Source of the DNA: Candidatus Saccharimonadota bacterium
Lineage (GTDB): Bacteria > Patescibacteriota > Saccharimonadia > Saccharimonadales > Saccharimonadaceae
Direction of reading: 5' to 3'
DNA: 64,000 nucleotides
NCBI GenBank assembly: GCA_028286365.1
Contig: JAQBRR010000001.1
Coordinates: forward strand, 186,001 to 250,000
Shown here: positions 32,001-58,707 of the stretch, one piece after another
How positions within the stretch are numbered: position 1 is the first letter of the stretch
How the letters are laid out: the number at the start of each line of letters is the position of its first letter
Translations under genes and position numbers: made by a program
The notes under the pieces: generated by a model
Seen by the model: the letters and a program-made list of their open reading frames with translations, nothing else
Databases searched by the model: none
What the model was told of the DNA's origin: nothing

Positions 32001-35000
32001 AATATTACACTTATCGACTGCCGTACCATATGCTGTACAACCAGCGGCCGAGCTCGTCGAACATCCGCCAAAGATATATAAGTTACCAGGATTAGTCCCT
32101 GCAGATGACGGATTGGCGCGTCCATAGGCAAATAAATACGACTCAGACGTCGCACCAACTCCTGTCATTGACTGTGAAGTCCAGGCCGATGTACTTCCAT
32201 TGGCTGCAACGGTTGTTCGTACGATAGTATTCGTATTAGCCGTACCATTCAGCCCTCCAACCAAGTAGATAGTATTGTTAAAGACGACTGGACTAGCCGC
32301 AGCAAGACCACCTGAAATTCCAAAGGTACCAACTGTTTCGACACACCAAATGCTGCCAGTAATAGTTCCATTCGGGCAGGTAGCAGGTGCGCTCATATTT
32401 CCAGTTGATGAGATCGCTACATATGCGACACCAGAACTTGTCGTCGAACATGTAACATTAGTACACCCACCTATAACATATAAATACCCATTAGTAATAA
32501 CTGCCTGTGCTAGCATGTTGCCAACAGAGCCAGTACCCGGTAGGTCACAGTCTGTAGGTGCACCACCATTACATGGAGAGGTTCCACTAGTGACAGATTG
32601 AGCTACAGTCGAAGCGTCACCCTCATCATCAATTGTGCCGTAGAGAATATTAGCTGTCATACTGGCACTGCAATCTCCGGTTGAAGTCACCTCAGCCGAA
32701 CATCCGCCTATGGCGTAGATATTATTTCGCCAAGCGAGTAGCGTCGAGCCTTCAACTTGGTTGGTGACGCCTCCTATTGTGTTCCATCCGTCTAGAGACC
32801 CGTCGGCATTAATACTTGCCACCTGGGTATCCGAATCTACGAGCGTACAATGGCCATTTCCGTTGACTGTCGAACAACCTCCCGAAATATATATATAGCC
32901 TCCCCATAGTGTAGAGAAGTTACCGCCACCGCTAATGCGTCCACTCGTGAAACTGCTCGTTGCGTTCCAGCTGTTGAGAGATCCGTCGCTGTTAATGCTG
33001 TTATAGTACACAGAACTTAGCGGTGTTCCTGTTAAGGTCGAATCTCCTCCTAAAACGTACAGGTGATTATTATAGACCTGGGCACTGTCACCATAGGCTG
33101 CAACAGGTAGGGCAGTAGAGGTTGTCCAACTTCCTAGCGTCCCAGTCGGATTTATATTGGCATATTCAACCGTGCTGATTGGTGCGGTGGCATTTCTGCC
33201 GCCAACCAGATACATGTGATTATTATAGGCGACGGCCGAGAAGTCAGAGCGCACATCACTCAGCCCCGTATCCGTGTACCAATAGGTCCACGTCGTTTTA
33301 TCACTACTTGTTGGATTCCAAAGTTGTGGCTCTCCGTTAGCGCCAAGCTTAGCAATGTAAACTGTGCTTTGGCGTGTTCCGCTACCATCGGTTCCTCCCA
33401 TTACATAGAGATATCCATTGTAGGCAACAAGACTAAAGTTGGTTCGTGCGGCCGGAAGGTTATAGGCGGAAGTTGTACACCATCCACTACAGGTACCACT
33501 TCCAGGGTTAGCACTGTCAATGTCTCCAGTGGTTGTGTCAAATTGAGCCCAACTGACGGATTGACCAACGACTGTTCCGCCGCTTCCAAAGCTAACGGCG
33601 ATGATACCATCTATACCAGCTTTTCCAGAAGACACTGCAAGTCCACCTGCTCCGCCTGTTCCGCCGCCATTGCGGAATGGGTCGGTTGAGTTAGCTGGCG
33701 TTACACCACTACCAGTTGAATTTGTAACTCCTGTATCTGTGGCGGCAGTAAAGCTGGAGCCACCACCACCACCACCACCACCGGTTGCGGTTGTAGATGA
33801 GCCAGAACCACCACCACCACCGAAGTAGCCACCACCACCTCCGCCACCACCTGCGTAACTTGTGGTTATAATTCCACCACCGTTACCACCCGTAGCAAGT
33901 CCACCAGTAGGGCCACTTCCTTTTGTTGCGGTCGAGTTTCTACCATCTCCACCGAGCCCACCAGTTAAGGAGGATCCCGCCGTACCTGGATCTGTACCAC
34001 CACTGCTCGCATTTCCTCCGGTCGATGCGGTTCCTCCACCACCACCACCAGCTACACCAGATGCTGTGCCACCAACGCCGCTCACGCCACCACCAGCACC
34101 CGCGGCACCACCAGCAGTTGTACTTGTCGCACGGGCACCACCTCCACCACCGCCTCCAGCGGCTATAACTAAGGGTGTAGACCCTCTATAAATACTTGAA
34201 TAACCACCACCTCCACCACCAGCACCGCCGGCAACGCGTGTACCTGCAGAACCACCACCACCAACGTAGACGTTGAGCGTTTCACCAGCTGTAACAGGTA
34301 TTGTTGCAGTCACGTATCCACCGGCGCCACCGGCACCACCTACCGCAGTTCCTCCACCTCCACCGCCACCTCCACCACCGCCGCCCCACACCTTGGTAGT
34401 AATACTTGTTACCCCCGTTGGAATAGTGACCGTATCAGACCCTTGGGTATTGTAGATTTGCCCATTTAATGCTGTGCCCCCAATAGAGTAGATGAAGCCA
34501 CCAGATGCGACTGAACTACCGCCCCAGGTTGCGGTGGGTAAGTTTGTTGAGGCGGTATTCCAGGTATTGAAGCGAGCACCTGTTGCAGGAGTTTTTTCAA
34601 TCAGTTTGTCCGCAACATCAAAGTCAATGTTTGATTCGTTGTTTCCCTGCATAAATTGTTGCGCGGTTACAACATAAATACTTGGGTCGATTGAAAGCGG
34701 GTAGTGCCCAGTTTTAAGTCCAGTAACATTAACCTTTAGATTATTCCCATCAAGTGAATAGCTGACTGCTACCGTAGACTTTTTCTTATCTGCCTGCAAA
34801 ATTACTGGCTTTGGAATACTAAACAAATGTGTGGTTTTTGGAGCGTTTTGACGGGCTTTCTGTAAGAGTGCAGCATCCGCATCAGTACCTGTCGTTATAT
34901 TTGAGCTCAGCAGAGTATTACCGTATATACCAATACTACCGTCTGATTCGAGGCGAGCTGCGAGGTTATCACCAAGGCCAAGAGTGTAGCCAAGTGTCAT

Positions 35001-35543
35001 GGTATCACCACTTGAATGATCCAGTAATACATCTTCTTTAACACCGGTAGTGTGCATTGTGTAGACCACCCATCCAGTGCCATCAGCTATTGGGTACACG
35101 ATACGGTTACCGTCTTGTTTACCTGTCTGAAGTTGGTACGTAGGTGTCATAGTGAAATCTATTTTGTTAACGGGGTCGCTCACTATGAGTCCTTTGGAGG
35201 CGTCTTGATAGGCGGTGGCGGTTATCTGTTGGGCTCCACTACTGATCGTATTGGAAGTTGGCAATGCCTGGCCGTTATTAAAATTGTAGGCGTGTTGGTT
35301 ACTGCTTAGTTGTACCTCGTTTGCTAATGTCTGGTCGATGGGGCTAAGGACGGACGCATCAGCTCCTAACGCATAACTGTCCTCAGTCAAAAATGGCTGA
35401 AGAACAGTTGCTAGTTCAGAACCAACGATAATCAATAAACAAATCATAACTCCAAAGCGTATCCGGCGAATTTGGATAGGTGAGAAACGCTTAAGAAACT
35501 TGATAACGAACCGGCGTGTACGATGTAAAATACGCTTTATCAT
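29049..35543 (-). CDS. Giant secreted Kelch-repeat protein with two poly-glycine domains
   Basis: 2164-aa ORF; N-terminal hydrophobic segment; many YNGYLYVMGG/IYAIGGC Kelch-type blades; two G-rich blocks each preceded by F/TxPTGVTSxTxKxWGxGG. Confidence 0.9.
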   Translation of the reverse strand: MIKRILHRTRRFVIKFLKRFSPIQIRRIRFGVMICLLIIVGSELATVLQPFLTEDSYALGADASVLSPIDQTLANEVQLSSNQHAYNFNNGQALPTSNTISSGAQQITATAYQDASKGLIVSDPVNKIDFTMTPTYQLQTGKQDGNRIVYPIADGTGWVVYTMHTTGVKEDVLLDHSSGDTMTLGYTLGLGDNLAARLESDGSIGIYGNTLLSSNITTGTDADAALLQKARQNAPKTTHLFSIPKPVILQADKKKSTVAVSYSLDGNNLKVNVTGLKTGHYPLSIDPSIYVVTAQQFMQGNNESNIDFDVADKLIEKTPATGARFNTWNTASTNLPTATWGGSSVASGGFIYSIGGTALNGQIYNTQGSDTVTIPTGVTSITTKVWGGGGGGGGGGGGTAVGGAGGAGGYVTATIPVTAGETLNVYVGGGGSAGTRVAGGAGGGGGGYSSIYRGSTPLVIAAGGGGGGGARATSTTAGGAAGAGGGVSGVGGTASGVAGGGGGGTASTGGNASSGGTDPGTAGSSLTGGLGGDGRNSTATKGSGPTGGLATGGNGGGIITTSYAGGGGGGGGYFGGGGGSGSSTTATGGGGGGGGSSFTAATDTGVTNSTGSGVTPANSTDPFRNGGGTGGAGGLAVSSGKAGIDGIIAVSFGSGGTVVGQSVSWAQFDTTTGDIDSANPGSGTCSGWCTTSAYNLPAARTNFSLVAYNGYLYVMGGTDGSGTRQSTVYIAKLGANGEPQLWNPTSSDKTTWTYWYTDTGLSDVRSDFSAVAYNNHMYLVGGRNATAPISTVEYANINPTGTLGSWTTSTALPVAAYGDSAQVYNNHLYVLGGDSTLTGTPLSSVYYNSINSDGSLNSWNATSSFTSGRISGGGNFSTLWGGYIYISGGCSTVNGNGHCTLVDSDTQVASINADGSLDGWNTIGGVTNQVEGSTLLAWRNNIYAIGGCSAEVTSTGDCSASMTANILYGTIDDEGDASTVAQSVTSGTSPCNGGAPTDCDLPGTGSVGNMLAQAVITNGYLYVIGGCTNVTCSTTSSGVAYVAISSTGNMSAPATCPNGTITGSIWCVETVGTFGISGGLAAASPVVFNNTIYLVGGLNGTANTNTIVRTTVAANGSTSAWTSQSMTGVGATSESYLFAYGRANPSSAGTNPGNLYIFGGCSTSSAAGCTAYGTAVDKCNIQTSGAIAGCTTTGQLQIGIMPGDTATGLGIMSGTVYANYVYLIGGVSPNQVDLTSVVYAKIDVNNNVVAVTSYPSGSTLSSTGWVQSPNEMAVGRRRAAAFGYNGYIYALGGYNGTSGSVLPDIEFIKVNTSDGSLGTAGSGFSVSSVTINQRWGLSVPISNSFAYVIGGCTTGASPGSCTATTDVVQTFQIYNNDSGAPANYTTSANTYGTNPNRIGGASAIYNGYIYAAGGCTGTSDCMNPTTTVSYAPIDTSGNVGTWSNTTAALPSARAWGKLLATGGSLYYVGGQDSDGVAQSTVYYATPSSGDISSWSTASNGLPGARTQFGATVWNNRLYVVGGGSGTQNTVVYNTAGTGTFVVPTGVTSLTVKAWGAGGAGGNGSGSTGIGGGGGGGGFSQATLTVTAGTSLTYNVGTAGAANTTASYGGNGGGFTALLNGATYLLQAGGGGGGGGTTSTTTGGQGGAGGGASGTAGTVGGGTATVGGAGSAGTNGAGGAAGAGGTGGVAGIAGAANNGGDGGGSLTSCTTTVTGRGGNGGTGAGGKGGISATCVNGGGGGGGRFGGGGGGSGSNAAVRGGGGGGGGSDLVTGATTTETAGSAGAAGAGGAAANNADVANVATAGKGGNGSTGTTSTSGQNGLLEITYGSYTPQATVYVSPQLNSGGNIASAWSTSSTSFNVARTGLTAVAYANNLYILGGYDGTNYLSDSQYSQINAGTGNAGTWSYSESLPGPLSQAEGFAANGYIYLIGGRSSATTCTPVTLVAPISANTTVASGNNPTGIGAWFITNQRYGGNRYGAGVAYSGGKAYVLGGACGTALTYASPVTQQTPLLSQPQIAQYSIMIDTDSDVYPTNWLLNGLDNSIGASWQLKYQSMTNTTTSCTSPAMTTWGSVTNFGNVTLGLPGAYTPLDGSGANTNCARFYYFNVAIDSSQAFGYPDDVTRGPTITDLTLQFTADPSKRLQHGRTFTGGLQQPLDTPYYTH

Positions 35544-38500
35544 TTATTGATTACTAAAGATAAAGTTAAGGTTTCCAACATAGGCATTAGCATTCAAACT
35601 AGCAGTCACACTAATCTTGAATACAATGCTATCGCCCCCGATGAAGCTACATGTTGATGGATCGGCTGCGCCTGTAGCCACACCTACTTGCCACCCACCA
35701 ACAGAGCCTGTTGAAACCGAGACGGATGAACCACAGGTTAAGAGCCCTAGTGTTGGATCACTACGATAGATTTGGTATTGGACAGTCGAGTTTGTGCTGT
35801 CAGTTCGACCTGCGATTGAAGTTTGACCTGACTCAAATACCTTGAAAGTGCTTGGTAGCTGGTAAGTAACATATATGCTGTACGTCTGGGCGCTGGCTTG
35901 CGGGGATGTCCATTTGTAGAAGTTGTATGTATCATTTGTACCACAGATTGTTGGTTGGCTTGAACTACCATCATTTATGCCTAGTGCCCCTGAACAAATG
36001 TCAGATGTCATAGTACCGATACCTGTGCCATGTAGTACGGCATTGGTAAATTCTGGCGATATCGTGACAACTGTATTTGGCGAGGAACCACAGGCACCCC
36101 ATCCACTTAGCTCGTAACATTGGATCGATCCGAGTGTTGTGTCGTAGTACATCGATCCCAGAAGCGCCGTGTTGTTATTCGCAATTGGCGCAGAAGATCC
36201 TTGGTCAAGAGTCAACAGTGTTACTGGGCCACCATTAACACCACCACCAATCTGAACATTTGGCGTGGTGTTAGTACTTTGGTTCATTGAGAAGGTGTCC
36301 ACGTAGAATGTTCTGGCCGTTGCGGCAGTCTGCGTAAAGTAAACGTAAGGACTGGTGGCTACTGTTGCATCGGTTGTGATATAGCAAGTAACCTCCGTGA
36401 AAGCAGTTAATGATGACGATACCGTTTGGGTATTGTAGTCGACACATGGTACGAAGCTGGTGCCACCATTTCGTGAATACTGAACCGTGAATGTGCTAAA
36501 ACCAGTTGTACTACTGGCGACGTAAGCTGTGACGAGGTACGTTGTATTAGGAAGAGGATTAACTGATAAGAGGTTGCGAACACCTTGGTTGGCTGTTGCG
36601 GTGGTCGTAACTTGGGCGCTATCACTGGCATCATTACCAACCGACGTACTGCGAGTAACGGTTGCAGCAGCTACGGTAGTCCAGTTAGTTGTGAAGTTAG
36701 CTGCGTTATCAACACTTCCGTCAGTTGCGTAGTTAAAGTTTGCGGCAACGGTGACGCTCAAGTTATCAACATAGAAAGTACGTACAACACCAGTTGCTTG
36801 CCTAATGAGGATGGCGTTACTTGAAGTAATACCTGAGGCAGGTGCAGTGAACGAACAGGTCTCTTTGGTCCAGGCACTGATGAGAGAAAGCCCAGTATTA
36901 TCACAAGCAACTGAGGCTGTCGTACCGTCTACCGAGTAATAAACAGTCATATTGTTGAAGGTTCCACTGGTAAGGCGAGAGGTAAATGATATGTTGTAGT
37001 GAGTATTGGCAGTCAAAGTAGTGCTAAGCGTATTCTTGACGCCATCATTTGCTGCAGCCGTCGTAAGCACTGATACTGACCCTTGTCCCGTTGCAATGTT
37101 GTTCCCCGCGGTCGTATAACGAGTGGCTGTGGCTGAACCAACTGCAGCCCACGTACTTGCTGGGAACGTACTACTTGTACCACCTGCTACTTCGGCACCA
37201 CTATCGGATGAGTATTCGGTTACGTTACCGTTAACCGAGAGAAGTCCTGCAGCTGAAGCGGTTTGAACGCTGAAAAGTGTACCATTGACTGGGTTAGTTG
37301 AGCTATCACGAATTGTGAGTCCATTAGTGTTACCCGTATGGCTAACAATTAATTCGGCGCCACCGGCACTTTGCAAGGTATTATCATAGGCAGATTGCAG
37401 TGTTGTTGAACTCGATGCACCAGCTGCAGTCCAGTCGGCACCGTTCCAGATCATTGTTGCGGTTGTGTTCTGGCGCATAGCGATTGTATTGTTTGCACCA
37501 CCACCATTAACTGAAAGGGTAAAATCGCTTGATGTATTGGCGGCGGTCACATAGACGACGCGACCCGCAGTGAGCGTTGTAGGGTCGGGGAGCGTTGCCG
37601 TGAACCCAGTTGCAGTAAAGCCTACAATAACAGCGGACGAGTTATTAACGGATGCGGCGGTAATGGTACAACTTGCAGAAACTCGAGCACCACCTGTGAA
37701 ACAGTTTGCATCAGTTGCACTTGTTGAAAAGGTTGGTGTTGCCAGGACAACGAGTCCATTTACTCCAGATCCTATGCCTGTTCCACCACTGATCGTAACG
37801 TTACCACCATTGGCACTACCGACCGTTGCATTACCACCTTGAATGGTGAGGGCGCCCCCAGATACGGCAGTAGTCGTACTGCCCGTTCCGCTAATTGCAA
37901 AGTTATTTGGTGCTGCTGCGGTCACACCATTACCAAGGTAGAGGCCATTTGCATTATCGAAGGTTCCCCGAACTACACCATTGACTGTTATGCCTACGCT
38001 TGCCTTAGCCTGTAGTGTGGTTGTACCACCAGTAGCGGAAGAGCTGCTTCCAACCGTTACGTTAGTCGTACCTGATGTCACCGTGCCGATATTGATAGTA
38101 CTCGCAAGGCTCGTCCCAATGCTGATTGTACCTGCAGCCCCTGCTCCATTACCTGCACCAGCGTCAATCGATACGTTACCACCCGCGCCACCGGTACCAC
38201 CACCTGTGCCACCTTGTAGTACCAAGTTACCACCAGCAAGTGCAGCCGCACCAGTACCGGCTCCGCCACCCGTGAAGGTAAGTGATTTACCAGCGACATT
38301 TATCGCCGCCGTTGCGACCGATAGTGTATGGTTGGCGTTTGCTCCGTAGGTAATATCGCCAGCGTTGGCAACTGTTATGACATCAACACCAGCTGATTGA
38401 AAATCTAAAAAGTTACCAGTACTTGTCTTGTTGATGTAGATGCTATTGGTGTTGGTTGATGCATCAGTTTGAACGCCTTGGGCAAGTTGTAGGAAATTGG

Positions 38501-39038
38501 TGCTGGCGAGGCCACCGAGTAGTCCAGAGTTTAGTGCGTAAGGGCTAGAAGACATTCGTTTCATTGGCACCATTTCGCCGTCAGGTGTACAAGAGGTGAA
38601 TGGGGTACATGTTGCGTTGGTACTACCGATATTCATTGACAGCCACAATGTACTTTGGTTCCAGTCAATACTTGCACCAAAAGGTGTGATTGAGCCAAGT
38701 TGAACAGACATGAAGCCATTTATGACTTGCACACCCTGTGTGTTGTTGTTGAGATAACTTTCAGTCCATTTCAGTGCACCAGCTGGGGAGCCTGTGGTGT
38801 CACCAACGCTTACGCCATCACCATCTTGATAGATCTTGAACTGAATATTATAAAAACCGTCAGGGACGGTTGCGCCAGAGCTTGTCAGAAGTCGACCCTG
38901 GAAGTTGATTTGTTGGTTGATCCCAGTTGCCGCGTGAGCTGGCGTAGGGGACTTCAGAAAAATGAGTACAAGAAGGACACCTAACAGTAGTAGAAATGGC
39001 AAAAATTTGCGCGATCTATGTAACACACCTAAGTACAT
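35544..39038 (-). CDS. Large secreted surface/tail-fiber-like protein
   Basis: 1164-aa ORF; signal peptide; INFQGRLLTSSGATVPDGFYNIQFKIYQ and SSPYALNSGLLGG; stop abuts the start of the Kelch gene. Confidence 0.88.
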   Translation of the reverse strand: MYLGVLHRSRKFLPFLLLLGVLLVLIFLKSPTPAHAATGINQQINFQGRLLTSSGATVPDGFYNIQFKIYQDGDGVSVGDTTGSPAGALKWTESYLNNNTQGVQVINGFMSVQLGSITPFGASIDWNQSTLWLSMNIGSTNATCTPFTSCTPDGEMVPMKRMSSSPYALNSGLLGGLASTNFLQLAQGVQTDASTNTNSIYINKTSTGNFLDFQSAGVDVITVANAGDITYGANANHTLSVATAAINVAGKSLTFTGGGAGTGAAALAGGNLVLQGGTGGGTGGAGGNVSIDAGAGNGAGAAGTISIGTSLASTINIGTVTSGTTNVTVGSSSSATGGTTTLQAKASVGITVNGVVRGTFDNANGLYLGNGVTAAAPNNFAISGTGSTTTAVSGGALTIQGGNATVGSANGGNVTISGGTGIGSGVNGLVVLATPTFSTSATDANCFTGGARVSASCTITAASVNNSSAVIVGFTATGFTATLPDPTTLTAGRVVYVTAANTSSDFTLSVNGGGANNTIAMRQNTTATMIWNGADWTAAGASSSTTLQSAYDNTLQSAGGAELIVSHTGNTNGLTIRDSSTNPVNGTLFSVQTASAAGLLSVNGNVTEYSSDSGAEVAGGTSSTFPASTWAAVGSATATRYTTAGNNIATGQGSVSVLTTAAANDGVKNTLSTTLTANTHYNISFTSRLTSGTFNNMTVYYSVDGTTASVACDNTGLSLISAWTKETCSFTAPASGITSSNAILIRQATGVVRTFYVDNLSVTVAANFNYATDGSVDNAANFTTNWTTVAAATVTRSTSVGNDASDSAQVTTTATANQGVRNLLSVNPLPNTTYLVTAYVASSTTGFSTFTVQYSRNGGTSFVPCVDYNTQTVSSSLTAFTEVTCYITTDATVATSPYVYFTQTAATARTFYVDTFSMNQSTNTTPNVQIGGGVNGGPVTLLTLDQGSSAPIANNNTALLGSMYYDTTLGSIQCYELSGWGACGSSPNTVVTISPEFTNAVLHGTGIGTMTSDICSGALGINDGSSSQPTICGTNDTYNFYKWTSPQASAQTYSIYVTYQLPSTFKVFESGQTSIAGRTDSTNSTVQYQIYRSDPTLGLLTCGSSVSVSTGSVGGWQVGVATGAADPSTCSFIGGDSIVFKISVTASLNANAYVGNLNFIFSNQ

Positions 39039-39167: not shown

Positions 39168-40133
39168 TTAGGCAGTGTTTGTGGGTAGCAAAAGTCCACG
39201 TTTGCGTAGGATTTGTTTTTCCCTGCGTTCACCAAGCCAAAAGCTGCCTAAAATACCAATCGCGCTGGTGTAAAGTGGCCATAAAACGAGGAGTTCGTTA
39301 GTCGTTGAGGCTGGTGAACTGGTTGAGCCAGCGCCTGCTGTAGATGGTTGTCCATTAATAATTGATGCAACCGTGATAAAGGCGACTCGACCGGCCGCGT
39401 CGGTTGCTTGGATCGAGATTTGATACGTACCCGGCTTGGAGTAAGAGTGAATAGCGTTAAAGGTATCATTACTATTTCTCGGAACAACCTTGTTATTACT
39501 ATCACCCCATTGGATATTAATAGCGTATGGTGGTGTACCTCCTAGGACATCAATCGGTACTGACAAGTCTTGACCAGGGAATGACCCACGAAATACAGCG
39601 TCAGTGTTAAGGAGTAACTGTGAACCACCAAAATCAAGCGGGCTTAACGCACCAGACTGAGCAGGCAACACATCATAGAAGTTCGTAATGGCTACTGAAT
39701 CTGGTCCAGCTTGATTAAGTACGTCATATACTCTCGCAATAATTTTGTTCTCGCCGAACAGAAGGTCAATATCAACTGAAAATGTGCCTTTAGTAGTACA
39801 GGTCGCTGAGCCTGCAAAAATATCATTTTTGTACATTTCAACGAGAGTATTTGCAGGACAGGTACCCGTATAAGTAACGGGAGAGGTATTAAAGTGTTGC
39901 TGATCCTTAGGACTGGTAATGACGGCTGCTACTGTAGGGGGTGCAGCTGGTACGGTACCAGTGAGGCCAATTGAGCCTGCTTCGGGGCCAGGACTTGAAG
40001 CAGCCGCAGTATACGCAATCAGCGACAGTCCTGCAACAAGTAACAGGATGCCTAGCGGAACGTATGAAGTATGCTCATGCGGTCTTAAGCGCGCAGTGTG
40101 GGCCACGTGACTCAGTTTAAGCCATTTTAACAT
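39168..40133 (-). CDS. PKD/Ig-like membrane-anchored protein (module A)
   Basis: N- and C-terminal TM; GENKIIARVYDVLNQAGPDSVAITNFYD, IQWGDSNNKVVP...IHSYSKPGTYQISIQATDAAGR PKD motif. Confidence 0.82.
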   Translation of the reverse strand: MLKWLKLSHVAHTARLRPHEHTSYVPLGILLLVAGLSLIAYTAAASSPGPEAGSIGLTGTVPAAPPTVAAVITSPKDQQHFNTSPVTYTGTCPANTLVEMYKNDIFAGSATCTTKGTFSVDIDLLFGENKIIARVYDVLNQAGPDSVAITNFYDVLPAQSGALSPLDFGGSQLLLNTDAVFRGSFPGQDLSVPIDVLGGTPPYAINIQWGDSNNKVVPRNSNDTFNAIHSYSKPGTYQISIQATDAAGRVAFITVASIINGQPSTAGAGSTSSPASTTNELLVLWPLYTSAIGILGSFWLGERREKQILRKRGLLLPTNTA

Positions 40134-40192
40134 GAGCGTATTATATCATGTGTGATACGTTTATGCAGGTCATGAAAGGTGTTAGCTGGTAA

Positions 40193-41188
40193 CTATTTAT
40201 TGTTCTTCTTGGCTTGGGCAAGGATGTACTTGTTGTAGCGTCGGATCAATGTTCGTAGTGCGAAGAAGGCAACGATCAGAGCACCGATAATGATTGCAAT
40301 CAATGTGTACGGAATAACCCAGAAGGTAAGACTCGAGGTGATTGTTTGTTTATTAGCACCGTATGTCACGCTCAAATCAGCGTGGTACAGGCCAAACAAG
40401 ATCTTATTACCGATATTTGAGCTATCGAGTGATGACTCAAATTTACGGATGCTGTTGGGCAGAATATCACGGGTTGGTTGGTTAACGCCAAGTGTTGCAA
40501 CAACGTTACCAAACATATCCTTCACTGTTACGACACCTGCTGGCTCCTCGTGAATGTTACCGCTATTTCTGAGTCGTTCCGTGAATACAATTGGTGCGGT
40601 CTCAAATAACGTTCCTGTTTTACTATTGTGTGATGCCGAAAACTCTACGACTGACAAATTTTCCTTAGCTTGTCCATTAACAGTCAGTAGTATGAGTGAA
40701 CCGAGACTGGCTGCAAGCGATACACCGGTACCGTTAAGGTCTGGAGGTGTACCTGTGAATCTAACGACACCATAATAACCACCAGGCGAGGCAGTCTTCG
40801 GCACGTTAATTGTGACCGTAAGATTTTTAATTTCTTTGGGTTTTAATGTCAATGAAGTCAGAGGCGTTGCCCAGCTCTTGAATGAATAGGCACTGACTGT
40901 ATCATCGAGGATAATTTTCGGTGTACCATCTTCACCACCAGCGACGAAGTCATTGATTTGTCCAATGACGAGCAGACTTGTCGGTGAGATATCACGAAGG
41001 CTTATAACCGTTTTGACACTTGTACCTGGGTCCGCGAATAGATTAATAACAGGGGGGCCGATCTCAAGTGCTTGGCCGCTTGAGTTTGTTGCCGCGGTCA
41101 CGGCGTTAACATGCGTTGTTGTAAGTAGCCCAATGACTAGGGCTGATAAAGTGATTCCGGTAAGGGCTAGGGTGGTGGATTTTTTCAT
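40193..41188 (-). CDS. DUF916/WxLIP-like surface protein with C-terminal TM (module A)
   Basis: Signal peptide, LEIGPPVINLFADPGTSVKTVISLRD, LKPKEIKNLTVTINVPKTASPGGYYGVVRF, C-terminal TM and basic tail. Confidence 0.78.
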   Translation of the reverse strand: MKKSTTLALTGITLSALVIGLLTTTHVNAVTAATNSSGQALEIGPPVINLFADPGTSVKTVISLRDISPTSLLVIGQINDFVAGGEDGTPKIILDDTVSAYSFKSWATPLTSLTLKPKEIKNLTVTINVPKTASPGGYYGVVRFTGTPPDLNGTGVSLAASLGSLILLTVNGQAKENLSVVEFSASHNSKTGTLFETAPIVFTERLRNSGNIHEEPAGVVTVKDMFGNVVATLGVNQPTRDILPNSIRKFESSLDSSNIGNKILFGLYHADLSVTYGANKQTITSSLTFWVIPYTLIAIIIGALIVAFFALRTLIRRYNKYILAQAKKNNK

Positions 41189-41204
41189 TGGTGGAAATTC
41201 CTAA

Positions 41205-42347
41205 TTAGTAGGTTGCTGTACAGATATACGTCAGTGTTGTTGTGTAGGTACCAGATGCCTGGTTACCAGCCACGTTGACTATATATGATGCGGTGAATAT
41301 CTGGGAATTAGTCGGTCCGGCAGTACCGTTGGCGCTATTGGCTACAGTCTCACCACTGACATATCTAAAGTGATCAACTGAATTATAGCCTGTAGTAGCT
41401 TGACCACGCAAGCTTGTGCCGTTTGCAGCAGCGGCAACTTCAGCTCCAACTGCAACTGTGGAGGTTAGTGTTGTGTTGAGCTTGAGGTTCATACCGAACT
41501 GACCTGTACCACGTACACCTAAGTCACCGGTCGAAAGAGTAGCCATTGTTGGGATCGTATTTGCACCAGATGTGAGTGTTGTACCGTTCACCGTAATGAC
41601 ATAACCAGATGCTGCGTTAGTTGAGGCAGCCATCTGTGAAGTAGCAGTTGCGGTATCTGTTGGAGAGAATAATTGATTAAAGCTTACTGCACCTGAGGTT
41701 GCTGTTGTGCAGTCTGGAATACTCGCAGTTGTACTGATTGTTGCACCTGCACAAAAGATAAGTGACTCAGGCATAGTACCCGTTAGGACGATTTGCGCTG
41801 CAGTACTTGCTGCGACTGAGCCAGTATCAGTTGCTGTTCCACCAAGTGCTGCTGCTGTGAAGATCGTAATACGTACGAAGAAAGTCACACCACCTGCAGT
41901 TGTTGGGTTGGTAATTGTATTTAATTGATACGAAAGAGCCGGAGCACCTGTAATTGCAGCTGCGGTACGAGTCAGATACGGTGCACCGTTAGTGGTATTG
42001 ACTAACGTAAAACCATTTGCCCCTGCTGATTGGCTAAAGATTGTTGCTGATGTTGTAACAAGTCCTGTTGGTAAGACACAGGCAGCAACACTTGCGGTCG
42101 TACAGTACAAGAACTGAATTGATCCAATTGTTTGGCCTGACGTACCTGGAGTAAACGTAAACAAGTGATTTACGACACCACCAATTTTTGAACCGCCATC
42201 TGATGCACCTGCAACGAGTGTCAAACTACGTGTCGTAATTTGAGCTGCCGATGCCTGGCCGGTCTGGAATGTTGCAACTACTGTTGCTAAAACCAACATT
42301 AACGATACTAATACACGCTTACTTAGGGTACCCCAGCTCAACTTCAT
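41205..42347 (-). CDS. Secreted surface protein, family S (module A)
   Basis: Signal peptide, AAQITTRSLTLVAG, FRYVSGETVA...YTTTLTYICTATY C-terminal domain. Confidence 0.85.
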   Translation of the reverse strand: MKLSWGTLSKRVLVSLMLVLATVVATFQTGQASAAQITTRSLTLVAGASDGGSKIGGVVNHLFTFTPGTSGQTIGSIQFLYCTTASVAACVLPTGLVTTSATIFSQSAGANGFTLVNTTNGAPYLTRTAAAITGAPALSYQLNTITNPTTAGGVTFFVRITIFTAAALGGTATDTGSVAASTAAQIVLTGTMPESLIFCAGATISTTASIPDCTTATSGAVSFNQLFSPTDTATATSQMAASTNAASGYVITVNGTTLTSGANTIPTMATLSTGDLGVRGTGQFGMNLKLNTTLTSTVAVGAEVAAAANGTSLRGQATTGYNSVDHFRYVSGETVANSANGTAGPTNSQIFTASYIVNVAGNQASGTYTTTLTYICTATY

Positions 42348-42404
42348 GTCGGAATTGTAGCATGAGCGTTAATTGTCCGTCAACAAAACTGTTATGTTTT
42401 GTGA

Positions 42405-43541
42405 CTAGAATGTAGGAGTACAGATATAGGTCAGAGTGGTCGTGTAGGTACCAGCTGGTTGGCTACCAGGTACGTTCACGATGTAACTAGCCGTAAAGAT
42501 CTGGGCATCTGATCCGCCTGCTCCACCGTTGGCACTATCGGCAACTGTATTACCAGACGCGAATTTGAAGTTATCTACGGTGTTGTATCCTGCTGCAGCT
42601 TCTCCGCGGTAGTTCGTACCGTTAGATGCAACCGCAACTTCTGATCCTATAGCTACAGTAGATGTCAATGTTGTGTTGGCCTTGAGGTTAAGTCCGAACT
42701 GACTAATACCGTGTGAACCGAGTCCTGACGCAGCCATACCAGTTACAGTGTTTGATCCAGATGTCAGCGTTGGACCGTTGACTGTGATTGCATACCCAGA
42801 GCCAGCATTGGTAGAGGCGGCCATCTGTGAGGTGGCAGTTGCAGTGTCGGTTGGTGAGAAGAGTTGGCTAAAGGCAACGGCACCAGTAGTAACGGTTGAA
42901 CAGTCAGGCACACTGGATGTTGTTCCAACAGTTGCACCAGCACAGAAGACGAGTGATTCAGGCATAGTACCAGTAAGGTCAATACCACGGTTCGTTGCAG
43001 CTGCAACCGTACCGCTATCAATTGGACTTCCTGTTGCGTTTAGGGATGCATAGCTTGTGATACGTACGAAGAACGTCTCACCATTAACAGATGTTGGGTT
43101 GGTGATCGAGTTAAACTGATAGGTTACAGCTGTATTTGAAGATACGAGTGTAGCACTGCCTCGGGCTAGATAAGGCGCACCGTTTGTCGTGTTAACCATG
43201 CTAAATCCAGTTGCACCGTTTTGACTGCTGAGGGTCGCAGAGGTCGTGACAAGGCCTGTCGGTGTTATACAGGTTAATGCACCTGTATCAGCAGCAGTTG
43301 TACAGTACTTGAACTGAATTGAACCAACGTTGCTACCCGCGGGTAGTGTAAAGGCGAATGCATGGTTAACAACACCACCTGGAGTAGAGCCACCAGTCGT
43401 ACCATTTGCAACAAGCGTCAAACTGCGGGTTGTAATCTGTGAGGCACCAGCGAAAACAGGGAAAATTGCTTGCACTAAAAGAGCCGTGAGCAATATAAAG
43501 GGACTTAATAGTCTTAAGAGGGATTTGTGGTGTTTTTGCAT
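42405..43541 (-). CDS. Secreted surface protein, family S, tandem paralog (module A)
   Basis: Near-colinear paralog of 41205-42347 (ITTRSLTLVAN..., QFGLNLKANTTLTSTVAIGSEVA, TYTTTLTYICTPTF). Confidence 0.85.
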   Translation of the reverse strand: MQKHHKSLLRLLSPFILLTALLVQAIFPVFAGASQITTRSLTLVANGTTGGSTPGGVVNHAFAFTLPAGSNVGSIQFKYCTTAADTGALTCITPTGLVTTSATLSSQNGATGFSMVNTTNGAPYLARGSATLVSSNTAVTYQFNSITNPTSVNGETFFVRITSYASLNATGSPIDSGTVAAATNRGIDLTGTMPESLVFCAGATVGTTSSVPDCSTVTTGAVAFSQLFSPTDTATATSQMAASTNAGSGYAITVNGPTLTSGSNTVTGMAASGLGSHGISQFGLNLKANTTLTSTVAIGSEVAVASNGTNYRGEAAAGYNTVDNFKFASGNTVADSANGGAGGSDAQIFTASYIVNVPGSQPAGTYTTTLTYICTPTF

Positions 43542-44521: not shown

Positions 44522-45568
44522 ATGAAAAAAGAACCATCTACAGAAATAAAGGACGAGGTAAAACCATCTTCATCGGAACCACCAGCTCCGGAGGTTTTGA
44601 AAGCGCAGAGTGATGATCCGCAAACGGAATCAACATCCGCCGAGCCTACAGATGCAGTTACCCATCGCGCTCATCCTTTACTGCATCGTGTGACATACCG
44701 CCCGAGCCACAAAGCTACCTTTATTGGTCTTGCCGTTGTGGTCGCGATTCTGGCGATCAACGCCGTCATTATTGCCTTTGTTGTTCAGGGTCAAGCCACG
44801 GCTAATGCACAAAGCTCACAGTCTGATGTGACAATTAGTCCAGCGGTTCTCGATACACTTGGTGTGAGTCGCAACTCAGTCGGAGACCTCGGTACGCAAC
44901 TAGTTGTCAGCCCTAACGCAAAATTCAATGGCACCGTCACAATTGGTAGCGACGTTAGTATTGGTGGCGCTCTAAAACTAAACGGCACGTTATCTGTGTC
45001 TAACGCAGCACTGACAACCCTGCAGGCAGGCAACACATCTCTTAGTAAATTGGATGTTAACGGTGACGTTAATGCTTCAAATCTAACACTGAGGCAAAAT
45101 CTTGCAATTGCTGGAACATCGACGCTACAGGGCGCTGTTACGGCTGGTCAGTCTATGACTGTAGCGGGTAATCTAACGGTCGGTGGAGCCTTGTCGGTAC
45201 GATTATTTCAGGCAAGTAGCCTGACATCCGAAACGACACTAACCATTGGTGGTCATGTGATTACCAAGGGGCTTGCACCTGGTCTTGTGGCCGGCGGTGC
45301 ACTTGGATCGAACGGAACTGCATCAATTAGTGGCAATGATGCCTCGGGTACAGTCGCAGCTAATGTCGGTGTCGGTGCGGTGAGTGGGATTTTAGCATCG
45401 GTGTCATTCAATACACAATATAGCTCAACGCCACACATTGTTATTAGCCCAGTTGGCCGCAGTCCCGGAGATTTTTACATTAACCGAACAAGCACTGGAT
45501 TTAGTATTGTCGTGACAAGCGGACTTGCGCCTGGTGGCTACGCCTTCGACTATATCGTTGAGCAATAA
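44522..45568 (+). CDS. Membrane-anchored beta-repeat protein with CPR-type C-terminal domain
   Basis: N-terminal TM; bactofilin/beta-solenoid-like VTIGSDVSIGGALKLNGTLSV repeats; C-terminal TPHIVISPVGRSPGDFYINRTSTGFSIVV. Confidence 0.75.
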   Translation: MKKEPSTEIKDEVKPSSSEPPAPEVLKAQSDDPQTESTSAEPTDAVTHRAHPLLHRVTYRPSHKATFIGLAVVVAILAINAVIIAFVVQGQATANAQSSQSDVTISPAVLDTLGVSRNSVGDLGTQLVVSPNAKFNGTVTIGSDVSIGGALKLNGTLSVSNAALTTLQAGNTSLSKLDVNGDVNASNLTLRQNLAIAGTSTLQGAVTAGQSMTVAGNLTVGGALSVRLFQASSLTSETTLTIGGHVITKGLAPGLVAGGALGSNGTASISGNDASGTVAANVGVGAVSGILASVSFNTQYSSTPHIVISPVGRSPGDFYINRTSTGFSIVVTSGLAPGGYAFDYIVEQ

Positions 45569-50713: not shown

Positions 50714-51556
50714 TTAAAACCTCGTCAAAATAACATAAATTGCGATGACTGCAACCGCTAGGATCCCTAGTACGAGAGCAGACAACTGTATAACATCACG
50801 ATACACGGCTGACTGTGCCATAGGGTTGCGTCCTACAGAGATAATACTACTACGAATCATAGAGTAAATGATACTAACAACGATAATAATTGTAATAATA
50901 AAGATCACACCACTAATAATGATAGGGAGTGAGTTGACTGTTTTTCCAGCGAGAGCATTCGCAAGGTTTTGAATAGCTGCCGGGATCAGCGTTTTGTCTG
51001 GCTGTGCATAGAAGTAAGTGACATTGACAACGATTGGTACTTCGCCTAAAGTCACTTTTTGTTTTTTGCCCTCGTTATCAGTATAAGTTTGAGTACTATT
51101 ACTATTGGCTGGGCCATCTTGAGCGATACCGACAACCTTGGCATTATTGGTCGCTTTCATGCCGACGCCCTTTATCGGCGAGGCGGTGATTTGATCACCT
51201 TTAACGATTGCACCATTCATGTCTGACACGAGTACTGAGGCAACACCGTTCGTGGCAACTTGTACTTGGTTAGCTGAACCATTCGATACAGTCAGTAAGG
51301 AGCTATCACTGTTAATAATGACTCCTAGGAGACTATTAACATTACTCGAAGATGTGCCAACAACCTGGTCAGATGTACCGTCCTTGAGGCTGACGAGGGA
51401 CCCAACAGATAACGTATCGCTGGTTGAGTAACCCTGAGAGATTGTTGTCTGTGCACTTGTCGCGACTGGTAGAAGTATCGCCAGACTAACAACACCAACG
51501 ACTAGTATTGCACTGTGTCGTGTCCGTGCTCCTACTAGCTTGACTATATTTAGCAT
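50714..51556 (-). CDS. Secreted/membrane protein with C-terminal two-TM c-subunit-like hairpin, at the atpE position
   Basis: Signal peptide, extracytoplasmic domain (GAIVKGDQITASPIKGVGMKATNNAKVVGIAQDG), then TM-loop(ISVGRNPMAQSAVYRD)-TM; 4 nt from the atpF-like start. Confidence 0.7.
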   Translation of the reverse strand: MLNIVKLVGARTRHSAILVVGVVSLAILLPVATSAQTTISQGYSTSDTLSVGSLVSLKDGTSDQVVGTSSSNVNSLLGVIINSDSSLLTVSNGSANQVQVATNGVASVLVSDMNGAIVKGDQITASPIKGVGMKATNNAKVVGIAQDGPANSNSTQTYTDNEGKKQKVTLGEVPIVVNVTYFYAQPDKTLIPAAIQNLANALAGKTVNSLPIIISGVIFIITIIIVVSIIYSMIRSSIISVGRNPMAQSAVYRDVIQLSALVLGILAVAVIAIYVILTRF

Positions 51557-54016: not shown

Positions 54017-54916
54017 ATGAAGTTGTTGGTTCGTTTTTTGTTAGGAAGCAGTCTGGTGCTATGCTTAGCTATTTTTTCGATAGGCACTCATGTGTACGCG
54101 TTAACCGTGCCCACTGGTTTGACTATTGCACCAGTCCGAACTGAACTTCAGATCGTCCCAGGTACTGTACAGACGGGGCAGTTAACAATTTACAATATGA
54201 CGACTAATGATATGAATGTCACGATGGACTCCGAGGTATTCAACGTTATTAATGAGCAGTATGACTATTCATTTAATGCTACATCGCCCGTAGCCGGTTG
54301 GGTGCAGTTTGATCCGACAACTACTATTTTAGCTGCAGGTAAGAGCAAGACTATTAACTATTCGGTCAATGTCCCGGCTGGAGCTGAACCAGGAGGTAAA
54401 TATATAAGTCTATTTGCCTCGACGTCTATAAAGAGCAACAATACAGCAGTTAATTCTAGCGAGCGTGTTGGCTCTTTACTGTATATAACAGTCAGCGGCA
54501 ATGTATCGCGCACAGGATATGTGCTGAGCTTATTTACACCATGGACAATGATTAACACGAGTATGTGGAGTGCAACACTACATGATGGCGGTACAGCACA
54601 TTTTGCCAGTAACTATAGTATGAGCGTCAAGACGCTCTGGAACACAGATGTCTCGTCGTATTCGAACAGCTCACTTATTTTGCCAAAGACAATTCGTCTC
54701 ATTCAGGGAACGATAGCTGAGCCGAAGGTCCCAGGCATATACAAGCTTGTATTTATAGCCAGCCTTGGCGATTCATCTGACGCAAAGCTTGAACGCTACA
54801 TTCTCTATATGCCAATATACGGCTGGATAATTATCTCAATTGCCGTACTTTTTATCGTCAATAGGGTAATAAGAATTGTTCAAAGAAGGCGTGAGAAAAC
54901 TAAAAAAACTACGTAG
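54017..54916 (+). CDS. DUF916/WxLIP-like surface protein with C-terminal TM
   Basis: GLTIAPVRTELQIVPGTVQTGQLTIYNMTTNDMNVT...VNVPAGAEPGGKYISLFAS, C-terminal TM and basic tail. Confidence 0.75.
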   Translation: MKLLVRFLLGSSLVLCLAIFSIGTHVYALTVPTGLTIAPVRTELQIVPGTVQTGQLTIYNMTTNDMNVTMDSEVFNVINEQYDYSFNATSPVAGWVQFDPTTTILAAGKSKTINYSVNVPAGAEPGGKYISLFASTSIKSNNTAVNSSERVGSLLYITVSGNVSRTGYVLSLFTPWTMINTSMWSATLHDGGTAHFASNYSMSVKTLWNTDVSSYSNSSLILPKTIRLIQGTIAEPKVPGIYKLVFIASLGDSSDAKLERYILYMPIYGWIIISIAVLFIVNRVIRIVQRRREKTKKTT

Positions 54917-55469
54917 TCTGGGGCACAGCCGTATAGAGTATGTTTGTCGAATAACTGCCAGCAGATTTCGAAAAGTCTAATTTAACTCCGTAGGTAACCG
55001 TTGTCACATCACCACCGACACTTGGAGCAGCAGGACCAACAAAGTTTTTAATTAACGCTGGAGTTGTTGTCATACCAATGAAATTAGTCGACGCATCGGT
55101 ATTATAACCCCACGTATTAGTTGCTAATGCGGCTGCTGCGACATTACTCGAGGCCGTTATTGTGCCTAGTGTCCCTGTAAGGTTGGCCGTCGTTAGCGCA
55201 TTAAGATACAGCTTGTAGCCCGTGACGTCAGTTGAATTAACGGTTACGACATTATTTGATGTACTGAGCTGTCCGCTATTGGCTGGTACGGCCGATATAA
55301 CAACACTCGACACGTTAATTGTTAGTGAGGTCTGACCACCGTAGGGAACGACGGCGTTATAAATACCAACGCCATATGGCGAGGCAGAAACTGGACGTGC
55401 AATGACCAGAACGGCCGCCGTAATAGAGATGAAGAAAAATGCAATAAAAATATTGTTTACTTTTTTCAC
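54909..55469 (-). CDS. Secreted surface protein, beta-rich
   Basis: Signal peptide; VTGYKLYLNALTTANLTG...NTWGYNTDASTNFIGM...VKLDFSKSAGSYSTNILYTAVPQTT. Confidence 0.72.
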   Translation of the reverse strand: MKKVNNIFIAFFFISITAAVLVIARPVSASPYGVGIYNAVVPYGGQTSLTINVSSVVISAVPANSGQLSTSNNVVTVNSTDVTGYKLYLNALTTANLTGTLGTITASSNVAAAALATNTWGYNTDASTNFIGMTTTPALIKNFVGPAAPSVGGDVTTVTYGVKLDFSKSAGSYSTNILYTAVPQTT

Positions 55470-55566
55470 GTTCGTGCTACTACTTTCTTCATGCTTGTGC
55501 TATTATAGCATTCAGATAATATTCAGATCGAATTTAGATATAAACAAAAACATAAAGGATATAATA

Positions 55567-56601
55567 ATGTCTAAAAGAAACGTTCGCTCATTTTTCAATA
55601 AAATAGTCAGTTTTGTAGCTATAGCGGCACTTGTTGCCGTATATGTGCCAAACTTAGCGTCAGCTGCGGCAATTACTAACCGTAAAGTAGTGATTGGTAG
55701 TTCTCAGCTTAGCGCTTTAACTACATACGTTTTTACATTCAATGTTCCATCTGGAACTTCAGTTGGTTCTGCTGACTTCCAGGCATGTACGACTGCCAGT
55801 GGTACATGTACTCCAGCACCTGGATTCTCATCTAGCGCAGGACCTGCAACGCTGACGTCTCAGCCGACAACATTGGGATCAGCATCAGGATGGACAATCA
55901 ATACTGGAACCGCAAATGACCTCAAGATCTCTGCGACTGCGGCTGCTGCTCCTGGAGGTACTTCTACAGTGAGCTTTACTAATGTTACGAACCCAAGTTC
56001 AGCTAACGCTACATTCTTCATGCGTATCACAACTTATACTGGTACAACCGGTAGCTCACCATGGACTGGAGTGATTGATACTGGTGTCGTTGCAGCTGCA
56101 ACTGCTGGTCAAATCACTGTTACGGCTAATGTAGATGAGTCCTTGACCTTTACACTGTCTGCTGCAACGGTAGCACTCGGGACACTAACGACGGGCACGA
56201 CTGGTAAAGACGGAACAACGACAATGGTTGCTGCAACAAACGGTGGTACAGGATACTCAATTACTTATACCGGTAACTCTCTGACGTCACCTAGTGGTGC
56301 ACTGCCAGCTTACGCAAGCTCAGCATCAGCTGCTGGTACTGCAGGGTTTGGCTTTAACCTTATGTCTAATACGACCCCTTCTGTAGGTACTGGTGTCTCT
56401 GGTTCTGGCTCAGGAACTGCGTTTACTGGATACGGCACAGCTAATGCCTTCACCTTTAACTCTGGTGACAAGATTGCATCTGCATCAGCTGCAACCAACA
56501 GTAATACTTATACAGTAAGTTATGTTGCCAACGTCGCTGGTGCAACACCAGCAGGTAGCTACACCACAACGCTGAACTACGTCGCAACTCCTAACTTTTA
56601 A
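55567..56601 (+). CDS. Secreted surface protein, family S (module B)
   Basis: ITNRKVVIGSSQLSALTTYVFTFNVPSGTSVGSADFQACTTA...TPAGSYTTTLNYVATPNF; ATG at 55567 preferred. Confidence 0.82.
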   Translation: MSKRNVRSFFNKIVSFVAIAALVAVYVPNLASAAAITNRKVVIGSSQLSALTTYVFTFNVPSGTSVGSADFQACTTASGTCTPAPGFSSSAGPATLTSQPTTLGSASGWTINTGTANDLKISATAAAAPGGTSTVSFTNVTNPSSANATFFMRITTYTGTTGSSPWTGVIDTGVVAAATAGQITVTANVDESLTFTLSAATVALGTLTTGTTGKDGTTTMVAATNGGTGYSITYTGNSLTSPSGALPAYASSASAAGTAGFGFNLMSNTTPSVGTGVSGSGSGTAFTGYGTANAFTFNSGDKIASASAATNSNTYTVSYVANVAGATPAGSYTTTLNYVATPNF

Positions 56602-57620
56602 TGGCTAGCCGAGCGAAATATATATCCGTTTTCTTAATGAGCGTTGTCTTTACGGCAGCGCTCATTGTCATACATACAAGTTCAGCATCTGCTCTCACAA
56701 CTACTCAGGCAGCAAAGCAAGGCATACAGATTAGTCCATCGATCATTAATCTCAATGGTACAAAAGGCGGTAGCTACACTGTCACAGTCAAGATAACTAA
56801 TGTAACAGTTCAAAATCAAACCTACTATAGCTCGGTTAAAGATTTTACGAACAAGGATGAGTCGGGTACGCCAAATATTTTGCTTACGAGTACATTACCT
56901 GACATAGCCTCAATACGTACATGGGTATCAACAAATGCAAAAATTACACTCAAGCCAGATGAAAGTAAGACGCTAGCGGTTAATATTAGTATACCAAGTA
57001 ATGCTGAGGCTGGTGGCCACTATGGGGCTCTATTGTTTTCTGGTACTGCACCAACGCCTTCAAGTGCTGGCGTGGCACTCGAAGCCAGTGCTGCGGCACT
57101 ATTCCTTGTAAGAGTCGACGGTAATATTATCGAAAACGCGACGGTTGCTTCATTTTATACAGCACCGACGAGCAGTGATAACCAGTCCTCGTTCTTTGAA
57201 AAAGCGCCAATTACGTTCGTAACACGCATAAAGGATGACGGCAATATTCATCTTCAACCAAACGGCCATATACTTGTTCACGATATGTTTGGTAATGTAA
57301 CATCAACTATCGCGGTGAACAGCGACAAGGCCAATGTACTACCTAACAGTATTCGTCGATTTGACACGACGCTAAGCAGCTCGTGGATGTTTGGCTACTA
57401 TACGGCCGATCTACAACTTGGTTACGGCACGCACGGTCAGGTGCTTACTGATACAATCAGCTTCTGGGTGATTCCATACAAGATCGTTCTCGTTGCACTA
57501 CTCGTCGTGATAAGCGTTATATTCGTTCTCGTTCGCATGGTAAAAGTGTATAATAAACGTATCATTGCAAAAGCAATACAAAAACATGAAAAAACTACGT
57601 CAAACCACAGTAAAAAGTAG
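56601..57620 (+). CDS. DUF916/WxLIP-like surface protein with C-terminal TM (module B)
   Basis: GIQISPSIINLNGTKGGSYTVTVKITN, LKPDESKTLAVNISIPSNAEAGGHYGALLFSG; paralog of 40193-41188. Confidence 0.8.
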   Translation: MASRAKYISVFLMSVVFTAALIVIHTSSASALTTTQAAKQGIQISPSIINLNGTKGGSYTVTVKITNVTVQNQTYYSSVKDFTNKDESGTPNILLTSTLPDIASIRTWVSTNAKITLKPDESKTLAVNISIPSNAEAGGHYGALLFSGTAPTPSSAGVALEASAAALFLVRVDGNIIENATVASFYTAPTSSDNQSSFFEKAPITFVTRIKDDGNIHLQPNGHILVHDMFGNVTSTIAVNSDKANVLPNSIRRFDTTLSSSWMFGYYTADLQLGYGTHGQVLTDTISFWVIPYKIVLVALLVVISVIFVLVRMVKVYNKRIIAKAIQKHEKTTSNHSKK

Positions 57621-58707
57621 CACGAAAAATCGATCTAAGGTCGTCAAACTTGCTCATGCCAAGCGCCCTTTACTGCGTCATTTAAGGCTTGTTGAACACA
57701 AACACACAGGCAAGTTAGTCAAAGTCCACCACAGCTCATACGTAGCCTTAGCAGGCATACTTGTGATTGTTGGATTCTTTCTAGTTCTTAGTCAAAATAT
57801 TACCAAAGCAGCCGATAATTCAATCGCAATCAACGCTGTTGTGAAGGGGCCAGCGCCAACGGTCGGTGCAACAATCACCGCACCAGTTAACGGTATTAGT
57901 ATTCTTAATCTCAATCCTAGTCAAGTAGAGGGGACATGTGTGGCAGACTCATTCGTTGTTGTCTATGATGACGGCGCACTTGTCGGTTCAACGATATGTA
58001 CGGCTGCGGGACTATTTAGTCTTAATGTTCAACTTCATGAAGGCACGAATATTCTGTCAGCTCGAAACTTTGACGATCTGAATCAGGCGGGTCCGGATAC
58101 CCCTACGGTGACTGTGACGTTCACTCCTGAGACAGTAACTCAAGCTATAGTTCAGCCAAATCTACCTAAAACTCCGGTAATAATTCCCGGAGTGACTCCA
58201 GGAATTTCAGATTGTGATAATTACGTTCCAACTGGTACACTTAACACTGGTGGTGAGCCTCACGTGGCTGTTGTTTGTGTGCCGCAGACCGTTCGGGTCA
58301 ACGAAAGTAATAGTATTGGTGTACTCGTATGGGGAGGAGCACCTCCGTACGCACTTAACTTCAAATGGGGAAGTGGCGATGAAACGCTTATAAGTATGGA
58401 CGCTCCCGGCTACAAGAGTGTTAAGGTACATTATGCAAGTTCTGGCACATACAATATTAATGTTCAAGTAACTGATCGTGGATCAGCTGCTGCAACTGGC
58501 CAGTCGGCGGTTCATGTAACGAGCCCTACTCAACCGCAGACCCTCACACAAATTATCAATAGTATCGCTTCAACCTCATGGTTTGAAACACCAGTACCAC
58601 TCTACATAATTGCAGTCGGTCTGACACTAGGATTTTGGGGCGGAGATATATTTAATCGTAATTTTGGCGCAAGACGTCTTCGCAAGAGGACAAGGAGGGC
58701 ATCATAA
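57586..58707 (+). CDS. PKD/Ig-like membrane-anchored protein (module B)
   Basis: GTNILSARNFDDLNQAGPDTPTVTV; KWGSGDETLISMDAPGYKSVKVHYASSGTYNINVQVTDRG PKD motif; paralog of 39168-40133. Confidence 0.8.
   Translation: MKKLRQTTVKSSTKNRSKVVKLAHAKRPLLRHLRLVEHKHTGKLVKVHHSSYVALAGILVIVGFFLVLSQNITKAADNSIAINAVVKGPAPTVGATITAPVNGISILNLNPSQVEGTCVADSFVVVYDDGALVGSTICTAAGLFSLNVQLHEGTNILSARNFDDLNQAGPDTPTVTVTFTPETVTQAIVQPNLPKTPVIIPGVTPGISDCDNYVPTGTLNTGGEPHVAVVCVPQTVRVNESNSIGVLVWGGAPPYALNFKWGSGDETLISMDAPGYKSVKVHYASSGTYNINVQVTDRGSAAATGQSAVHVTSPTQPQTLTQIINSIASTSWFETPVPLYIIAVGLTLGFWGGDIFNRNFGARRLRKRTRRAS

Follow-up and report, generated by a model that had tools for sequence, protein, structure and literature searches.

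A membrane protein with a c-subunit-like hairpin heads a second, F1-like ATPase operon in Saccharibacteria and is a candidate surface-directed rotor

F1-like ATPases with a membrane part that is not an Fo have been described from mycoplasmas only, and were reported to have no counterpart known from other bacteria (PMC3369863). The Type 2 and Type 3 mycoplasma clusters encode a protein with a signal peptide, a surface domain and two C-terminal transmembrane (TM) helices with a short loop between them (PMC3369863), a plan represented by MMOB1650 of M. mobile and by MSC_0620/MMCAP2_0577 (PMC3369863, PMC12994834). For M. mobile, which has a Type 2 enzyme (G1-ATPase), rotation has been proposed to pass to the surface (PMC11864180), and the Type 3 ATPase is required for MIB-MIP antibody cleavage (PMC12994834). 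In a cultivated Saccharibacterium, every component of the predicted F-type ATP synthase is dispensable (PMC10633639). Protein 5 of the mycoplasma cluster has been reported as non-homologous to Fo subunits. N-ATPases, the alternate F1Fo enzymes, likewise form a second ATPase operon in addition to the canonical one, and they possess a and c subunits. In the papers that we searched, no account of an F1-like system of the mycoplasma kind in Patescibacteria was found.

A second, F1-like operon in a small genome

The window analyzed here is a 64,000-nucleotide stretch of DNA from a near-complete, 850 kb genome of a Candidatus Saccharimonadota bacterium. It contains an operon of seven tightly packed genes in the order X, b, delta, alpha, gamma, beta, epsilon (Table 1), where X, the first gene, encodes a membrane protein. 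Adjacent genes are separated by 4-base gaps or overlap by 1–11 bases, and are therefore probably translated as a unit. The canonical operon of the same genomes (a-c-b-delta-alpha-gamma-beta-epsilon) has a parallel layout, with X standing in place of a-c, so that X occupies the position of the c subunit relative to b-delta-alpha-gamma-beta-epsilon. PF00119 and PF00137 are each represented by exactly one gene in the window genome, both in the separate canonical operon. Subunit a is absent from the X operon and its surroundings, and no membrane proteins other than X and b are shared among X operons.

Table 1 Features of the F1-like operon and its surroundings in the window
Feature	Coordinates	Strand	Description
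X	50714..51556	-	signal peptide ~1-35, ectodomain ~36-190, c-like TM hairpin ~205-280, GRNP loop 242-245
b-like subunit, 203 aa	50098..50709	-	one N-terminal TM and coiled coil; assigned by weak ATP-synt_B match, weak b/b' models and position
delta/OSCP-like subunit, 163 aa	49617..50108	-	PF00213, E = 3e-6, above cut-off
alpha-like subunit, 490 aa	48152..49624	-	P-loop and arginine finger retained
gamma-like subunit, 288 aa	47286..48152	-	PF00231, E = 4.5e-27
beta-like subunit, 464 aa	45892..47286	-	Walker A GGAGVGKT, GER and ELS motif retained
epsilon-like subunit, 88 aa	45626..45892	-	beta-sandwich domain alone, without C-terminal helical domain
Y, fibre-like partner	44522..45568	+	cytoplasmic N-tail of ~65 aa, single TM, beta stalk resembling bactofilin, conserved tip domain at the C-terminus
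Pilin-like ORF, 35 residues	51666-51773	+	upstream of X, opposite strand
WxL-like, WxL-interacting/DUF916-type genes	39168-43541 and 54017-58707		on both sides of the operon
Two very large surface proteins	29049-39038		2164 and 1164 aa

Across homologous operons, the F1-like beta subunits contain GGAGVGKT (31/31) and GER (31/31) and retain Walker B DN together with the ELS motif of the DELSEED region, and the alpha subunits carry the arginine finger in 31 of 32 cases. From these intact catalytic motifs we infer that the complex would be an active ATPase. The C-terminal helices of epsilon are the usual inhibitory element, and their loss from the protein encoded here fits a hydrolyzing machine.

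The mycoplasma X0 ATPases provide the closest parallel, in that they too are encoded by an additional F1-like cluster that lacks a canonical Fo and, by the papers' descriptions, share with X the plan of signal peptide, ectodomain and two C-terminal TM helices. However, the mycoplasma clusters have no recognized b or delta and include a 12-TM protein, whereas in Patescibacteria b and delta are usual and a 12-TM protein is missing. The Patescibacterial alpha and beta proteins scored far below the cut-offs of the NCBIfam models for MSC_0618/0619 and MMOB1660/1670, and the canonical models gave them higher scores than the mycoplasma models did. We would thus regard the system as one that may work like the mycoplasma X0 ATPases, by analogy, without filing it with them. 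It likewise differs from the N-ATPases, as the X operon lacks a and its products score far below the N-ATPase model cut-offs.

The X hairpin compared with the F-type c subunit

X is a 280-residue protein in which a signal peptide and an ectodomain of ~150 aa precede a C-terminal hairpin at residues ~209-279; its N-terminus, MLNIVKLVGARTRHSAILVVGVVSLAILLPVATSA followed by Q, resembles a signal peptide as judged by eye. The original prediction had described this protein as a TM helix, an R-N-P loop and a second TM helix placed behind a signal peptide and an extracytoplasmic domain, and the confirmed ORF reads in this way throughout. An AlphaFold2 model of X placed two long helices at residues 209-241 and 245-279 with the turn at GRNP, and the hairpin modeled alone reached pLDDT 80, with helices at 9-41 and 45-79 of the fragment. 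Given the signal peptide, the ectodomain is expected to lie outside the cell and the GRNP loop on the cytoplasmic side, matching the topology of the c subunit.

In an alignment of homologues, the G-R-N-P loop was present in all 50 X proteins, compared with 2 occurrences per 320,634 residues in adjacent non-X ORFs. The ion-binding position, 20 residues past the loop Arg (R+20), is Leu in the window protein and L/V/I/G/A in 50/50 X proteins, with D/E in none, so that the loss of the helix 2 carboxylate noted for the single protein extends across the family. The same holds for helix 1, said earlier to be devoid of GxGxGxG: a Gly-repeat packing motif of this type is absent family-wide (columns -32 to -8), and ring packing would therefore have to differ. 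A polar residue is found at R+14 of helix 2 (Q in 32/50, E in 7/50). Mean pairwise identity within X was 56% for the loop, 41% for the hairpin and 37% for the ectodomain; the loop is thus the most conserved part, consistent with the F1-facing side being under the strongest constraint and the ion side having been lost.

To compare the families directly, we aligned the X hairpin profile with a profile of 28 canonical Saccharibacterial c sequences using hhalign, which returned an ungapped match with GRNP in register, at a probability of 87% and E = 4e-6 for this single comparison. The observed score was reached by 0/200 full column shuffles and by 0/200 shuffles within segments (best probability 24%). 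With GRNP held fixed, 3/200 column shuffles attained it, indicating that GRNP accounts for most, though not all, of the signal and that the remaining hairpin adds modestly. A Foldseek search of the hairpin model against 350,542 PDB chains gave six matches at E ≤ 10, five of which were c subunits (from Yarrowia, Acinetobacter, Tetrahymena, E. coli and Toxoplasma), at individual E-values of 4–9, none significant alone. PF00137 did not match the window protein up to E = 10 or any of 25 family members (0/25) up to E = 0.1, and a c subunit was absent among the Pfam, NCBIfam and PDB sequence-search matches of X. The failure of all 25 to match PF00137 at the HMMER level identifies X as c-like and probably c-derived, not as a c subunit.

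Together, the comparisons of sequence suggest that the X hairpin probably descends from an F-type c subunit, and the proposed resemblance to the c hairpin is borne out by the profile similarity and, at weak E-values, by the Foldseek matches. The two share a two-helix hairpin with helices of ~33-35 residues, an R-N-P polar loop and the same inferred topology. X differs from the c subunit in the signal peptide and ectodomain added in front, in its lack of a Pfam match, and in having neither the helix 2 carboxylate, nor the helix 1 glycine motif, nor a subunit a as partner.

Distribution, age and the fibre partner

Named homologues of X belong to Candidatus Saccharibacteria/Saccharimonadia. The X profile matched 129 of the 295 genomes from the class and, phylum-wide, 145/384 genomes, where the matches were either to full-length X or to the ectodomain by itself. 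The original prediction had pointed to the homologues' locus as informative, and we found that most homologues head F1-like operons instead of lying away from ATPase genes. Of 39 Saccharibacterial loci, extracted with at least ~7 kb of flanking sequence where the contig reached that far, 31 have F1-like genes adjoining X, and the other 8 are orphan X genes. Such an operon also accompanies full-length X at 17/20 loci from other Patescibacteria classes, in many of which a divergent b-like gene takes the usual b position, and at 13/13 named loci found by a single-protein scan, some of them cut by contig ends. A few of the Saccharibacterial F1-like loci are truncated or without detectable b/delta. 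At two loci (L052, L076), b and delta are missing and alpha directly follows X, and in one genome (G001) an operon with neither gene coexists with one that has both. X lies at the operon end at L056, and the operon is rearranged at L145. The operons at three loci (L129-L131) carry an X gene at either end, with additional 1-TM or 2-TM proteins next to b. At L077 (G052), X, b and delta are accompanied by an alpha cut short to 286 aa and a tip gene is lacking, so that the operon there looks to be in decay.

Both a and c are missing from ten X-bearing genomes, yet alpha/beta are present in all ten, which implies that the system exists independently of a canonical Fo. In eight of the ten, the alpha/beta pairs are close to X, with one half of a pair on its own contig in G029; in G022 a contig end separates X from the F1 genes, and in G007 X and the fibre gene are on a different contig from them. 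In the beta tree, canonical beta sequences of the same class and all F1-like beta sequences phylum-wide are divided by a branch with support of 83/100, arguing for an old split; the root of the alpha tree is too long for ordering deep nodes. A recent duplication of the canonical operon was considered and rejected, with identities of 44% for beta, 38% for alpha and 18% for gamma.

In the window, the gene for Y is convergent with the X operon at a distance of 57 bp, and its stalk gave a weak bactofilin match. Many Saccharibacterial loci have a Y-like gene just past epsilon on the opposite strand, encoding a hydrophilic N-tail, a TM helix, a repetitive beta stalk and a tip. We searched 99 genomes with a profile of the tip (A4) and detected it in 43 of 56 X-positive genomes and in none of 43 X-negative ones (Fisher p = 9e-17, a value that ignores shared ancestry). 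Within genera 1, 10 and 14, some species have both X and the tip and others have neither, and in most tip-bearing genomes the tip gene is less than 10 kb from X. The link between X and the fibre is solely genetic, by gene adjacency as well as by co-occurrence. All eight orphan Saccharibacterial X genes adjoin a gene for a large surface protein of type-II membrane plan, 615 to 3,574 aa long, with the N-tail and single TM seen in the Y-like proteins, and at two of these loci (L046, L074) the large neighbor carries the tip itself. One genome (G208) has three X genes and one F1-like operon, suggesting that X-fibre pairs may be interchangeable on one motor.

A candidate surface-directed rotor, its alternatives and its setting

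We consider it reasonably probable that X is the c-derived membrane rotor of a second, non-ion-pumping F1-like rotary ATPase with motion carried to surface structures. This reading builds on the observed gene content, conservation, intact catalytic motifs, missing a, lost carboxylate and fibre co-occurrence, and adds homology of the hairpin with c, ring formation, rotation and transmission to the fibre as its putative elements. The putative non-ion-translocating ring raised in the original prediction agrees with all of these observations. The retained F1-facing GRNP loop would allow gamma and epsilon to dock, and with both the ion site and subunit a gone, the customary way of coupling rotation to ions would be closed. 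With alpha3beta3 held by b-delta, its ATP hydrolysis would turn gamma-epsilon and, with them, a c-like oligomer (ring) of X, whose ectodomains would move outside the cell. The likely load would be the surface, foremost the single-TM fibre proteins encoded beside X. We advance more tentatively, as a possibility somewhat short of even, the wider proposal of an ion-free, ATP-driven rotary motor throughout Patescibacteria, in which a site-less c-derived ring with an external crown works or turns a fibre, possibly swapping rotor-fibre pairs per F1.

Alternatively, X may be a static membrane anchor whose hairpin binds gamma/epsilon or b with no rotating ring, conformational cycling of the F1-like part then producing push-pull at the surface. 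The missing glycine packing motif of helix 1 and the absence of a, the classical stator subunit, would agree with this, but the GRNP loop is invariant and most operons keep rotor (gamma, epsilon N-domain) as well as stator (b, delta) parts, which suggests rotation against a stator, and we hold an anchor to be unlikely. Since X operons and orphan X genes adjoin very large surface proteins, and F1 alpha/beta are related to FliI/SctN, an export machine is also conceivable, with an F1/FliI-like ATPase pushing fibres or large adhesins out and X at the exit site. We judge this improbable: gamma would occupy the center of the hexamer, the operon has no channel protein, and Sec is usable both by the fibre partners, through their TM anchors, and by other X-neighbors, through their signal peptides.

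Very little speaks to us for an ordinary ion-translocating ATPase, in which the ion site is displaced or diverged and subunit a is borrowed from the canonical operon. Such a subunit does exist in the window genome, and R+14 is polar; however, R+14 is not a conserved carboxylate, acidic residues at R+20 are absent from the whole alignment, and the ten X-bearing genomes described above are without any subunit a. Equally hard to credit is the view that X is an unspecialized surface protein whose c-like loop arose by chance and whose gene only happens to be transcribed together with ATPase genes. The ectodomain does repeat without the hairpin in giant surface proteins, but throughout the phylum full-length X retains GRNP and stands at the head of one and the same operon, it is one of two membrane proteins in that operon, and both the column shuffles and the PDB search favor c.

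If the rotor reading is true, a rotary ATPase has turned into a surface-acting machine, and the two-TM X0 protein of mycoplasmas becomes explicable as a diverged c-derived rotor, which offers a testable origin. Patescibacteria are mostly epibiotic, and the complex would be a candidate machine by which some of them act on their surroundings. Many tiny Patescibacteria have this second, ATP synthase-like machine, and the apparent loss of the ion site from its membrane rotor, together with the apparent gain of an external domain, suggests ATP-burning mechanical work at the surface, not ion pumping. For annotation, alpha/beta genes alone in Patescibacterial genomes are not proof of ATP synthesis, because at least ten genomes carry the F1-like form only.

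The X ectodomain matched PF23982 (phage minor capsid) in 9/25 members, at best with E = 4e-6, and PF22758 (phage cement) in 2/25. In the full-length AlphaFold2 model the ectodomain was poor (pLDDT ~40-70, pTM 0.32), so that its weak Foldseek matches to phage decoration proteins are a hint only. The Pfam matches and this model suggest a phage-decoration-like beta fold, likely shared with the phage cement and decoration proteins of PF23982 and PF22758, from which the X version differs in being membrane-displayed in bacteria, outside any capsid. The domain also occurs without the hairpin, sometimes in multiple copies, in giant Patescibacterial proteins of 1000-4400 aa (e.g. G582:C5, G530:C7), and seems to be a widespread surface domain without a name, its fold resembling that of phage cement proteins.

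Further surface-related genes surround the operon in the window. The short ORF just upstream of X resembles an isolated type IV pilin N-terminus (VKKLPGTEEGFTLLELIIVMIAVVILVAVVFYFYG). PKD/Ig-like proteins accompany the flanking WxL-like and DUF916-type genes, and related families recur near X in other genomes. The two very large surface proteins are rich in glycine and carry either kelch-like repeats or a carbohydrate-binding domain.
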